From positions 1 to 31,221 of IMG/VR virus record IMGVR_UViG_3300029319_000208: DNA of 31,221 bases. One strand, written 5' to 3'. The DNA is from a virus. Shown in pieces: positions 1 through 11,109 of the stretch. The first letter of the stretch is position 1. Every line of letters begins with the position of its first letter. The translations under genes were made by a program, and so were the position numbers. The notes beneath the pieces were generated by a model. That model saw nothing but the letters and a program-made list of their open reading frames with translations. It had not been told where the DNA came from and did no database searches.

Positions 1-975
1 TGGGGTGTTGAGTATCAAACCATATGTGATGTTATTGATATTGCATTAGCTGATAATGAGCTTACTGATTTGCGTAAAGCAGAACTTAACTTTGTTATCA
101 AGACAGCTAATCAATATTACAATTCTATTACTAATCATAGATACGGTCAGCTTCCATCATATCGTAAGGTACAAAACTATGCAGCTAAACTTAGTCATGT
201 ACTAGATATGTTTCTAGGTAAACCTAAACCAGAAGAAATTCGTAAATCTGCTGCACAACTTAAAGCAGAAGAATCTGAATCTGAACATGATGATACTGAA
301 GAGTCTGAAACACAACCAATAAATAGTGTAAAAGATTTGGAAAAACGTATGCGTAAAGATATGTTGGGAAGAATGAATTACAGTACAGGTAGTGGTGTAG
401 GTTACTGGGGTGACATGGAAATACATGAACCACCATTGACTGTAAACCTACAGGGTAGACTTAAAAATGGTAGAGCCTACAGGCCTGCTGATTACGGTTA
501 CAATCCTAAGTTCATACATAGATGGGCTAGTGACAAGCAGATATTCAAACAAAAACAAAATGTACTTGGTGGTACTATCTTGATAGATGCATCAGGTTCT
601 ATGAGTTTTTCTGGTGAGGATATCCTAGAGATTATGTCACTGTTACCTGCAGTAACTATTGCTATGTACAATGGTTACGGTGGCACTGGTGATTTACGTA
701 TCATTGGTCGTAATGGTATGCGTGTAACAGAAGAATATATTAACAATCATTCTGGCGGTGGTAATGTAGTTGATGGCCCAGCATTGAAATGGTTAACTAC
801 TATGCCAGAACGTAGAATATGGGTGTCAGATATGTACATATTTGGTGCTTCAGGTGATACATCAGGCTTCAATCTTATGAAGGACGTGATGGACACATGC
901 ATCAAAGGTAAGATAATTAATCTAAAAGATATAGAAGAAGTAAAGGAACACGCTATAAAACTTAACGTGTTATAG
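1..975 (+). CDS. VWA (MIDAS) domain protein, 5' partial
   Basis: The reading frame is open from the first base, so the true start lies upstream; a TTG at 70 is only an internal candidate. About 324 codons are visible. The first third is helical and charged, with an acidic linker near 270-320. A von Willebrand A fold follows, with the MIDAS motif DASGSMSFS (Asp codon at 586) and a late metal-loop-like WVSDMYIFG. The expected MIDAS threonine region reads GGGNVVDGPAL, so Asn may replace Thr. Proteins of this type (CobT/ViaA/MoxR-associated VWA) normally work with a MoxR/CobS-like AAA+ ATPase, and such pairs occur in cyanophages. The partner would be expected just left of the window. The VWA fold is clear; the phage role is inferred. 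Confidence 0.82.
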   Translation, partial: WGVEYQTICDVIDIALADNELTDLRKAELNFVIKTANQYYNSITNHRYGQLPSYRKVQNYAAKLSHVLDMFLGKPKPEEIRKSAAQLKAEESESEHDDTEESETQPINSVKDLEKRMRKDMLGRMNYSTGSGVGYWGDMEIHEPPLTVNLQGRLKNGRAYRPADYGYNPKFIHRWASDKQIFKQKQNVLGGTILIDASGSMSFSGEDILEIMSLLPAVTIAMYNGYGGTGDLRIIGRNGMRVTEEYINNHSGGGNVVDGPALKWLTTMPERRIWVSDMYIFGASGDTSGFNLMKDVMDTCIKGKIINLKDIEEVKEHAIKLNVL

Positions 976-1007
976 TAGTAGGTATACATGGCCCATCTGG
1001 CAACAGA

Positions 1008-1193
1008 GCGTGTGTACCTTTCGCACATGTTAAGGACGTGTTCGTAGCAGAATAGAGTGCAAGGAGAACTTGCAACGGGTATTCATATTCGTCAACAATC
1101 GACCTATAGTGAACACTGCTACGCCTACTCGTTATCCGGGAAGCTACCTGTTCTACTGCGCTGTACGCGTTACACGTCTGCACGGCCTGCAGA
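1008..1193 (+). ncRNA. candidate structured RNA in GC-rich non-coding gap
   Basis: The 976-1291 gap has no convincing gene. It is far richer in GC than its surroundings (34 of 60 bases at 1141-1200, against about 20 of 60 in the next gene). It contains nested perfect helices: 1034-1041 with 1172-1179 (one G-U), 1043-1050 with 1116-1123 (8 bp), a hairpin at 1058-1063/1069-1074 with loop GAGAA, and a hairpin at 1177-1182/1188-1193 that competes with the end of the first helix. Two 60-62 codon ORFs start with GTG (1057) or TTG (1070). They have GC-rich codons unlike the neighbours, and I do not recognise either. No tRNA T-loop was found. The strand is assumed from the neighbours. The family is unknown. 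Confidence 0.35.
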
Positions 1194-1291
1194 ACGGAGT
1201 ACGTTTCGCTTGTATCACATCCGCTTCCCTTCTAACTCGTATTAATTTTTAAATACAAGACAAGAATATAAAAAGAAACTAAGATGAAACT

Positions 1292-1525
1292 ATGAAAGAT
1301 ATAGATGAATTGTTAAGTGAAGCAGAAATAGGAAAACAATCTGCTGTATTTAACAGAATTACAGATGAAGCTATGCCTTTCTGGCAAGGTATCGTTGAAC
1401 GTATAGAGACTGGTAAAGCTATAAAGCCATACGTTGTACATAGAATTTTACGTGATGAATTTGATGTACATATAAGTGAATCAGCAATACGTAAACGAAT
1501 CAGGGACATACAGAATGGCAAATAA
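1292..1525 (+). CDS. small helix-turn-helix protein
   Basis: This 77-residue protein has an acidic helical N-terminus. The HTH-like C-terminal half (about 45-73) includes IKPYVVHRILRDEFDVHIS followed by AIRKRIRD, which would be the recognition helix. The ATG at 1292 is the only good start; there is no strong Shine-Dalgarno, only an A-rich leader. It overlaps the phosphoesterase gene by 11 bases, so the two are probably translationally coupled. Small HTH protein plus phosphoesterase pairs are common in phages. A DNA-binding or regulatory role is inferred. A small-terminase-like role cannot be excluded but lacks support. Confidence 0.75.
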   Translation: MKDIDELLSEAEIGKQSAVFNRITDEAMPFWQGIVERIETGKAIKPYVVHRILRDEFDVHISESAIRKRIRDIQNGK

Positions 1526-2582
1526 AAAACCTAAAGACGTAGATAAACTCATAGCAGAAGCTGAAAGTGCTACAATACAAGCATTAAAAGCTGACAATCT
1601 AAAGCTACTTAAACAGCTTGACAAAGCAAAAAACAAAAAAGAAGATATGATTGAAGCTGTATATGAAGCTGTATCTACTAACTTAAGAACTTGGAATAAA
1701 CCTAATATTCCAAAACCTAAATCAATAAAGAAATCAAAAGACGAAGAGATTGCTGTAGCTATATTGTCGGATGTACAGTTAGCTAAAGTAACACCTGAAT
1801 ACAATACTGAGATAGCAGAGAAAAGAGTAATAGAGTATGCACATAAGATAGTAGAATTAACAAATCTACAACGAAACGCGCATCCTGTGCGGAAGTGTGC
1901 TGTACTTGCTGCTGGTGATATCGTAGAAGGAGAACTTATATTTCCTGGTCAAACGCATCTTATAGATGCAAGTCTATATAATCAAGTGACAATAGATGGA
2001 CCTAGAATATTGACAAAGTTCTTTGACATATTACTAGCAAACTTTGATGAGGTAGAAGTAACCTGGGTAATAGGTAACCACGGTTCTCTTGGTGGTAGAG
2101 CAAGGAAAGACTATCATCCAGATTCTAACTCAGATAGAATGCTTGGTAAGATAATGTCAATGGTATATGAATATGAGAAAAGAATATCATTTATAATACC
2201 AGACAGCACAGGTGATAACCATTGGTTTGCAATAGCTAACCTTGGTGAAGACTGTAAGTTTTTTGTATGGCATGGAGATAATATCAGGGGACACTCAGGA
2301 TTCCCATGGTACGGCTTCGGTAAGAAGCTGCTTGGTTGGAAGGCATTAGCATCAAGAGACCTGATGCCTGACTTTGATTACGCTATAGCTGGACACTGGC
2401 ATACGCCCACAACTATGTACGTCAATGACGTAAGAGTCTGGGTAAATGGCAGCACAGAAAGCTATAACACGTATGCATTAGAACAGTTAGCTAGCATGGG
2501 TAGACCATGTCAATGGTTACTGTTCTGTAAACCAGGACATGGAATTACTGCAGAATACCTTGTAAAATTAGATAAAGTATAA
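1515..2582 (+). CDS. calcineurin-like metallophosphoesterase
   Basis: This 355-residue protein starts at the ATG at 1515, which overlaps the HTH gene; a GTG at 1476 would add 13 residues with poor support. Residues 1-60 form a Lys/Glu-rich probable coiled coil. The metallophosphoesterase core follows: SDVQ (D86, with Q88 where DxH is usual), AAGDIVEG (D135), VIGNHG (N188, H189), WHGDN (H253) and AGHWHTP (H294, H296). The family hydrolyses phosphodiester or phosphomonoester bonds with two metal ions; phage members are often called Mre11/SbcD-like nucleases. His-to-Gln in the first motif and GNHG rather than GNHD/E are deviations, so the substrate is uncertain. It precedes the recombination gene, consistent with DNA metabolism. 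Confidence 0.88.
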   Translation: MANKKPKDVDKLIAEAESATIQALKADNLKLLKQLDKAKNKKEDMIEAVYEAVSTNLRTWNKPNIPKPKSIKKSKDEEIAVAILSDVQLAKVTPEYNTEIAEKRVIEYAHKIVELTNLQRNAHPVRKCAVLAAGDIVEGELIFPGQTHLIDASLYNQVTIDGPRILTKFFDILLANFDEVEVTWVIGNHGSLGGRARKDYHPDSNSDRMLGKIMSMVYEYEKRISFIIPDSTGDNHWFAIANLGEDCKFFVWHGDNIRGHSGFPWYGFGKKLLGWKALASRDLMPDFDYAIAGHWHTPTTMYVNDVRVWVNGSTESYNTYALEQLASMGRPCQWLLFCKPGHGITAEYLVKLDKV

Positions 2583-8810: not shown

Positions 8811-8815
8811 AAGAA

Positions 8816-8872
8816 CTACTTCCTTTTTTTGACTTTATAAGCCTTCTTCTTGCCTTTTTTTCCTATTGGCAT
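8816..8872 (-). CDS. possible 18-aa basic peptide
   Basis: ATG at 8872 is preceded by AGGAG with six-base spacing, a near-ideal ribosome-binding site. It encodes MPIGKKGKKKAYKVKKRK and stops six bases before the next ATG. It overlaps the end of the zinc-ribbon ORF in another frame. It may be a real micro-protein or a leader that couples translation of the 97-residue gene. Confidence 0.4.
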   Translation of the reverse strand: MPIGKKGKKKAYKVKKRK

Positions 8873-8987
8873 TGTATCTCCTAACTTTAACTTGATAACG
8901 TGTACACCCTAGATTAACACAAGTTTTGTATTTCTTAAAGAATTTAAGAGCTTGTTTACACTGACCACAGTGTGTAATAACTTTTAT
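8835..8987 (-). CDS. zinc-ribbon ORF lacking a usual start codon
   Basis: Between the 60-residue membrane protein and the 97-residue gene lies an open frame with HCGQCKQALKFFKKYKTC followed by NLGCTRYQVKVRRY. The pattern is C-x2-C-x12-C-x4-C with a basic tail, a credible Zn ribbon. No ATG, GTG or TTG exists between the in-frame stop (TAG) and the first cysteines; candidates are ATA at 8987 (overlapping the upstream TAA) or ATT at 8978. Either a rare start is used through coupling, or the gene has lost its start. Coordinates assume ATA. Confidence 0.4.
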   Translation of the reverse strand: MKVITHCGQCKQALKFFKKYKTCVNLGCTRYQVKVRRYNANRKKRQEEGL

Positions 8988-9162
8988 TTTCTAAAACCTA
9001 TTGTCAATAACCAAACAACTAAAGTAATTACAGTTGCTAAACCTGTTATTTGTTGAGCAGAACCAGTCAATGTAAGAGTAGCAATAACTAAACCTACTAA
9101 AGTCCAACTAAGATTCAACGTTTCTTTAATTGCTTCTACAAACCATGTCCATAATTTTTTTA

Positions 9163-9166
<4 letters not shown>
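8984..9166 (-). CDS. small two-helix membrane protein
   Basis: This 60-residue protein has an amphipathic N-terminus (MIKKLWTWFVEAIKETLN) and two hydrophobic segments, about 20-35 and 40-57, separated by a short GSAQQ turn, ending in RK. The hairpin topology and size resemble class II holins, so it may be a second holin or a holin regulator. The ATG overlaps the poly-Thr gene stop (ATGA), so it is co-translated with it. Confidence 0.65.

Positions 9167-11109
<1,943 letters not shown>

Follow-up and report, generated by a model that had tools for sequence, protein, structure and literature searches.

A new family of structured phage RNA between a VWA gene and an HTH-phosphoesterase operon

We identified a conserved structured noncoding RNA of 153 nt, RNA-1, at positions 977–1129 (plus strand) of a 31,221-nt stretch of viral DNA (hereafter the window), which comes from a virus record of 34,593 bases. 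RNA-1 is a real and new RNA family, which is strongly supported by the comparative evidence, and a tRNA-like module that replaces its 3' half in some relatives is a good lead to its function. The seven-helix fold, the conservation, the single copy and the fixed place of RNA-1 are shown by alignments and searches of its relatives.

RNA-1 lies, in a single copy per source, between a gene for a VWA-domain protein (1–975, plus strand, open at the window edge; phrog_33218, E 8.5e-23) and an operon encoding a 77-aa HTH-like protein (1292–1525, plus strand), which is conserved among related loci, and a calcineurin-like phosphoesterase/exonuclease (1515–2582, plus strand; phrog_284, E 9.4e-40). The VWA and HTH labels are those of the initial annotation, which was made from the sequence of the window; phrog_33218 itself is of unknown function, and Pfam and PHROG searches with the HTH-like protein gave no match. 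The gene content fits the phage origin that the annotation had proposed.

The annotation placed a candidate multibranch RNA in a GC-rich island at 976–1260. The island is real, with a GC content of 0.467 compared with 0.346 for the whole window; of 3,103 overlapping segments of 200 nt, just one exceeds 1001–1200 in GC. Its description as the only gene-free gap of more than 300 bases holds loosely, since further gaps of 337, 352 and 338 nt appear when open reading frames (ORFs) of at least 80 aa are counted; two of these three contain plausible short genes, and the third is 8811–9162. Elsewhere the window encodes a 648-aa protein (9163–11109) with long threonine and glutamate runs and with weak PHROG matches only.

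With the downstream phosphoesterase as a query we retrieved 77 IMG/VR loci, in most of which approximately 120 nt just 3' of the VWA stop are conserved at a blastn identity of roughly 70–90%, and matched changes were visible by eye in an early alignment of relatives. A covariance model (R1) was built from 10 relatives with the window copy excluded (alignment A3, 41 pairs), and it recognizes the window copy with 114.4 bits (E 3e-24). A DNA pattern that is independent of the genes, made from two conserved blocks, selected 100 viral stretches and 7 in bacterial genome contigs. R1 has one match in each of 111 sources, comprising 74 of the 78 gene-found and 37 of the 44 pattern-found ones. Four gene-found loci were missed, of which L020 and L072 are cut contigs and L071 and L075 are divergent. 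The seven pattern-found misses (L134, L175–L180), where the model finds nothing, are chance pattern matches and were dropped from all counts; a second R1 match in L141 (8005–8067, 11.3 bits, E 4.9) was likewise taken as chance. The sole true match in a genome contig (L174), where these phage genes are present too, comes from a gammaproteobacterial bin assembled from a metagenome. Among the 37 pattern-found members, the VWA gene lies upstream of RNA-1 in 36 (the remaining contig stretch begins at the RNA). The HTH gene follows RNA-1 in 33, and the sequence ends at the RNA in the remaining four.

No Rfam 15 family (4,227 families) scored at or above its gathering threshold within 977–1129, in agreement with the novelty that the annotation had suggested. 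At low stringency there was one chance-level match on the minus strand (E 0.67; 17.1 of 80 bits), and Rfam scans over the element in six loci and over L019 4110–4820 gave no match. The window copy contains neither a tRNA cloverleaf with an anticodon nor the tRNA-like domain of tmRNA (RF00023), and searches of a library of open-access papers found no description of an RNA resembling RNA-1. Phage structured noncoding RNAs and tmRNAs consisting of only a tRNA-like domain are known kinds already; the fold of RNA-1, and its joining with a tRNA-like domain (see below), are new as far as our searches reach. The ornate RNAs GOLLD and ROOL are structured and noncoding, at least some are of phage or prophage origin, and their function is unsettled; RNA-1 differs from them in its length (140–166 nt across the family) and in having no Rfam match.

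Searched with blastn (E up to 1), 50,697 phage records yielded six short matches only, covering 4–11% of the 501-nt query, and the VWA protein and two large proteins had no match in phage records; therefore no cultured relative is known to us. Streptomyces phage Dagobah (L197 3693–5011) has a relative of the phosphoesterase after a small hypothetical gene, an arrangement that resembles the HTH-phosphoesterase pair, and no RNA-1 was found at that locus.

Fold and covariation of RNA-1

RNA-1 is closed by P1, in which AGUAGG (977–982) pairs with CCUACU (1124–1129), with all six pairs formed in the window. Domain I (984–1041), which is kept in all lineages even when the 3' half is another, contains P2 (984–989/1036–1041; one A-C mismatch in the window) at a three-way junction with two hairpins. 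The first, P3 (996–1007, UCUG-GCAA-CAGA), has a GNRA tetraloop, present in 42 of 48 sequences, and the second, P4 (1008–1030), has its loop at 1015–1023. In domain II (1044–1122), P5 (1044–1050/1116–1122) encloses the P6 hairpin (1058–1074; UGCAAG-GAGAA-CUUGCA, 1058–1063/1069–1074) and P7 (1077–1105), a short GGGU/ACCU helix around a variable loop.

Covariation was examined in alignment A4, in which 48 non-redundant sequences are placed on the model and which is thereby fitted to the structure. Standard pairs fill 95.3% of the 1,920 cells, and double changes occur at 34 of the 41 pairs. The number of cells with double changes (484) compares with 134.9 ± 10.9 in shuffles and with 31–61 when the partner is shifted by 1–3 columns. 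Because A4 was fitted to the structure, RNAalifold was also run on a MAFFT alignment made from sequence only (A1); it recovered P3, P5 and P6 unaided, with double changes at 14 of the 18 predicted pairs.

Double changes are found at six of six pairs of P1 (94% of cells paired), whose variants include AGUAGG/CCUACU (window), GGUAUG/CAUACC, GGUAAG/CUUACC, AGAAAG/CUUUCU and others, at four of four pairs of P3, five of seven of P4 and six of seven of P5 (100% of cells paired); P6 is supported as well. The weakest helix is P7, with 84.3% of cells paired and one pair with double changes. We also considered a pseudoknot between a purine-rich strand 5' of P2 and the P4 loop, the complementarity of which is no better than in shuffled flanks (mean z −0.34, 54 sequences). 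The window has one matched double change (GGUA/UACC, GGAA/UUCC in relatives), and this pair is broken in other lineages.

The covariation in the 48 sequences strongly supports the initial proposal of a folded multibranch RNA rather than coding DNA, and two of its helices reappear in the conserved fold: the perfect 8-bp helix 1043–1050/1116–1123 corresponds to P5, and the hairpin with a GAGAA loop at 1058–1074 corresponds to P6. The boundaries and nesting it gave were wrong. The RNA ends with P1, the entire 5' domain (P2–P4) had been missed, and 1130–1245 holds a second structure that is not part of the same RNA. The proposed outer helix 1034–1041/1172–1179 exists as an 8-bp match with one G-U pair but is absent from the family fold. 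We rejected it, as 1036–1041 is the 3' strand of the covarying P2 (partner 984–989) and 1172–1179 sits in the separate element. An alternative hairpin at 1177–1193 is likewise present but forms part of that second element, not of RNA-1. The observation of a structured island is thus partly confirmed and its first interpretation partly supported.

Folding energy, which had been suggested as a check, is not clearly better than that of dinucleotide shuffles on the plus strand. The plus strand of 976–1260 has a z-score of −1.28 (12% of 200 dinucleotide shuffles are equally low) and that of 977–1129 a z-score of −1.82. Folded without constraints, the window copy reaches its energy minimum (−44.9 kcal/mol) in a structure that lacks P1, P2 and P4, whereas in the family fold it has −30.9 kcal/mol; the fold of the window copy therefore rests on homology, not on energy. 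Single-sequence folding energy alone, which the annotation had itself named as a refuting test, would have discarded RNA-1, a lesson of this case; the comparative evidence decides.

The weak folding energy, together with an open frame of ~62 codons from a GTG at 1057, could also be read as a chance structure or a short coding gene, a reading that the covariation already refutes. The spacing between two invariant blocks takes ten values that fall in all three classes modulo 3 (21, 16 and 11 of the 48 sequences); therefore the annotated ORFs at 1057 and 1070 are not kept in frame, nor is the length of the frame. A small ORF through domain I, with an ATG in P1 in some lineages, was discarded too, since loop-length changes break its frame.

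Sequence conservation extends beyond the helices. CCUUUC in the P4 loop (1017–1022), which resembles an anti-Shine-Dalgarno sequence, and GAGA of the P6 loop are each present in 48 of 48 sequences. The internal strand GAAUAGAGU (1050–1058) is invariant, the strand opposite, UAGUGAACAC (1107–1116; UAGUUAACAC in a few), is nearly so, and UAGUNAACAC is an invariant block. New to Rfam and with unusually strong covariation, RNA-1 can be probed directly.

Divergent relatives and the tRNA-like 3' module

The HTH protein of the divergent locus L071 as a query gave 15 loci, of which 14 were examined (L182–L195); L182 is the L071 contig again, and the one omitted, L181, is the L075 contig, which had been seen before. 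R1 detects nothing in these 14 loci. Domain I is nevertheless kept between the VWA and HTH genes in all 14, with P2, the GCAA hairpin and a second hairpin that carries CUCCUUUCC in its loop in every case; four of the loci were aligned with 21 others for this domain. Domain II is missing from all 14, which have the same genes.

In L182–L184 the 3' half is one strong plain hairpin. In the other 11 loci (L185–L195) it is a tRNA-like domain, at about 2866–2944 in most, with a 7-bp acceptor (GGGGGUG/CACCUCC), a T arm and a CCA or CUA end. We take the G-U third pair of the acceptor to be an alanine identity element. Seven loci were scanned against Rfam (L183, L185–L188, L191 and L195), and the tmRNA family RF00023 matched in all six that have the tRNA-like domain (E 1.5e-8 to 1.7e-17), with the gathering threshold of 47 bits passed only by L195 (51.4 bits) and the other five at 30.2–45.4 bits. 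ARAGORN reported no tRNA or tmRNA in the 14 divergent loci. A tag-coding, mRNA-like part was not found in the sister loci, where only a short hairpin-sized stretch lies between the acceptor strand and the T arm, and no tRNA-like feature was found in domain II. This comparison shows RNA-1 to be modular, with a universal 5' domain and 3' modules exchanged between lineages.

Mycobacteriophage DS6A is reported to have a "TLD only" tmRNA; a similar molecule is described as a strong inhibitor of tmRNA, perhaps through titration of SmpB (PMC4131195; repeated in PMC11915505). The DS6A tmRNA resembles L185–L195 in having no tag-coding part. It differs from the window copy, which has no tRNA-like domain and whose 3' half is domain II, and the statements on DS6A in these sources make no mention of an upstream domain with a CCUUUC loop such as that of the RNA-1 family. 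Mao et al. 2009 is said to be the primary source for tmRNA inhibition by a molecule like the TLD-only form. Methylophage Melnitz is described as encoding a permuted, full two-piece tmRNA with a tag and with a glutamine riboswitch (PMC9004378). The likeness to RNA-1 is that of a phage-encoded structured RNA tied to translation, but ARAGORN finds no such tmRNA in the 14 divergent loci. Exchange of the 3' half for a tRNA-like domain of the tmRNA type is a rare functional clue for an orphan phage RNA, and it would tie RNA-1 to host translation and ribosome rescue.

Two further pairs of loci (L208/L212 and L198/L211) have no VWA, HTH or phosphoesterase match and were excluded as members. They carry tRNA-like ends and were found by a pattern that required TCCTTTCC together with such an end, so that the coincidence was selected; the L208 fold lacks the GNRA hairpin. 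In L208 (11450–12200) and L212, from an unrelated phage, a CCUCCUUUCC-containing hairpin is followed by a putative, pattern-selected tmRNA-like end, and several more hairpins lie within a long noncoding stretch. In L198 and L211, a phage tRNA-like end (GGGGGTG..CACCTCCACCA) is followed shortly by an ATG and an open frame.

Promoter-like hexamers and possible functions

A −10-like hexamer, TAAGAT (1280–1285, plus strand), lies 6 nt before the HTH start codon in the window. Of 46 distinct upstream sequences, 44 have such a hexamer, which ends 7 nt before the start codon in 40 of them and 6 nt before it in the other four, and TTG is found at the −35 position in 37; a −35 element of the TTG type is not evident in the window. 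By general promoter knowledge, a −10 hexamer 6–7 nt from the start codon presumably gives a leaderless mRNA, and its conservation suggests a conserved leaderless phage HTH mRNA. Since the hexamer is downstream of RNA-1, the main transcript of the HTH gene would begin beyond RNA-1, which sits at the 3' end of VWA.

RNA-1 has the same orientation as the HTH gene and lies about 40 to 540 nt upstream of it, which would suit a leader or attenuator of this operon that is reached by read-through from VWA. We consider this very unlikely: the −10-like hexamer falls between the RNA and the gene in 44 of 46 sequences, so that RNA-1 would not lie within the HTH 5' untranslated region as a leader or riboswitch does, and the spacing between RNA-1 and the gene differs by a factor of more than ten among loci. 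Phage antitermination RNA hairpins include the boxB pentaloops of lambdoid phages and HK022 put. The GAGAA loop of RNA-1 resembles the GNRA-like boxB pentaloops, but RNA-1 comes after a gene, not before one.

Another hexamer, TATAGT (971–976, plus strand), overlaps the VWA stop codon, and a TANNNT hexamer is present at this place in 48 of 48 sequences, even where VWA stops 6–10 nt earlier. We considered it as a promoter for RNA-1; a start 7 nt downstream, however, would exclude the 5' strand of P1, which covaries.

RNA-1 directly adjoins the VWA stop codon, an independent promoter comes after it, and strong 3' structure ends every lineage. These features would fit a cis-acting boundary element, a structured VWA 3' untranslated region that sets the 3' end, by termination, RNase processing or protection, and insulates the next operon. 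What matters in such an element is the fold, hence the exchangeable 3' modules. A run of at least five T residues lies 3' of the RNA in 4 of 48 sequences, and U-rich stretches lie 3' of the alternative 3' modules; in the other 44 no U-run directly follows P1, and the invariant GAAUAGAGU, GAGA, UAGUGAACAC and CCUUUC far exceed what a terminator or stabilizer needs. We judge this explanation possible, at clearly below even odds, and about equally likely as an RNA directed at translation, which is discussed below.

A regulator of VWA expression that binds a protein or a ligand, through autoregulation by VWA or HTH or as a riboswitch-like sensor, is more doubtful. The VWA and HTH neighbourhood is fixed in all contigs long enough to tell, and the invariant asymmetric internal loop is of a kind that binds proteins or small ligands. 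RNA-1, however, is 3' of VWA rather than 5', and in the 14 divergent loci, where these genes are retained, domain II with its internal loop is missing.

The explanation that we favour, tentatively, is that RNA-1 acts on translation. In this view RNA-1, a structured and modular noncoding RNA, occupies the 3' end of VWA, ahead of the separate HTH-phosphoesterase promoter. As domain I is common to all lineages, the function should reside there. The P4 loop would mimic the anti-Shine-Dalgarno tail of 16S rRNA: it reads UUCCUUUC or CUCCUUUC in most sequences and ACCUCCUUUC in L057 and L068, and 26 of 150 genomes from one phylum contain a 16S-like tail GGATCACCTCCTTTC (ending CCTCCTTTC). The tail that ends in CCTCCTTTC we take to be the 16S 3' end.

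The loop could then pair with GAAAGG-type ribosome-binding sites, for example the one in front of the phage gene for a single-strand annealing protein, which is GAAAGG in 39 of 76 loci and another purine-rich sequence in the rest. Ranked by duplex energy with the P4 loop, this site is first in 12 of 31 loci (~15 genes each) and is outranked by another gene in 19, in a ranking by raw duplex energy that includes the strength of the site itself. Complementarity to Shine-Dalgarno sequences is generic, as expected of any such pyrimidine loop, and we regard it as suggestive only. CCUUUC is invariant, so that covariation names no partner for it; the block may instead make a tertiary contact within RNA-1 or bind a protein. 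RNAIII and RsaE are small RNAs with C-rich loops that pair with Shine-Dalgarno sites; RNA-1 resembles them in its exposed pyrimidine loop complementary to ribosome-binding sites but differs in that its invariant sequence extends far beyond the loop.

In the same translation-directed model, the 3' module would fold the end of the RNA and hold a host factor, which for the tRNA-like version would plausibly be SmpB or alanyl-tRNA synthetase (AlaRS), by analogy with the tmRNA family. RNA-1 would not act on leaderless messages, of which the HTH mRNA is presumably one. It is conceivable, if distinctly improbable, that RNA-1 founds a modular ribosome-directed class of phage RNA, with a 5' domain that presents the anti-Shine-Dalgarno sequence on its three-way junction and exchangeable 3' modules, among them domain II and a tRNA-like domain that would sequester SmpB. 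Such RNAs would shut off both ribosome rescue and translation led by ribosome-binding sites, and leaderless messages of the phage would be spared.

Element 2 and other structured stretches

Separate from RNA-1, the minus strand of 1130–1245 contains a GC-rich rod-like hairpin with purine-rich internal loops (element 2; core 1137–1231). In the window the minus strand is the more stable (−38.9 compared with −33.3 kcal/mol for the plus strand). The 125 nt 3' of RNA-1 were examined in 23 loci; they are purine-rich, with the plus strand more stable, in 16, and purine-poor, with the minus strand more stable, in seven (the window, L003, L004, L013, L022, L054 and L064). The purine-rich strand is thus the more stable one in 23 of 23 loci, and the orientation of element 2 is opposite in 7 of the 23. 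On its purine-rich strand the element forms an extended rod in which purine-rich internal loops recur regularly, with a z-score of −3.16 in the window (minus strand) and of −1.7 to −7.1 in nine other loci; in L013 the z-score is +0.74, where the folded 120-nt stretch may cut the element.

A third structured stretch precedes the HTH promoter in L019 (4400–4800), L042 (4500–4800), L058, L038 and L063. It has a AAAGGATAAYATGTAA-like block, in which a ribosome-binding site precedes an ATG with TAA immediately after it, and in L042 it contains a long-range helix, ACAGTCTGATA/TATCAGACTGT.
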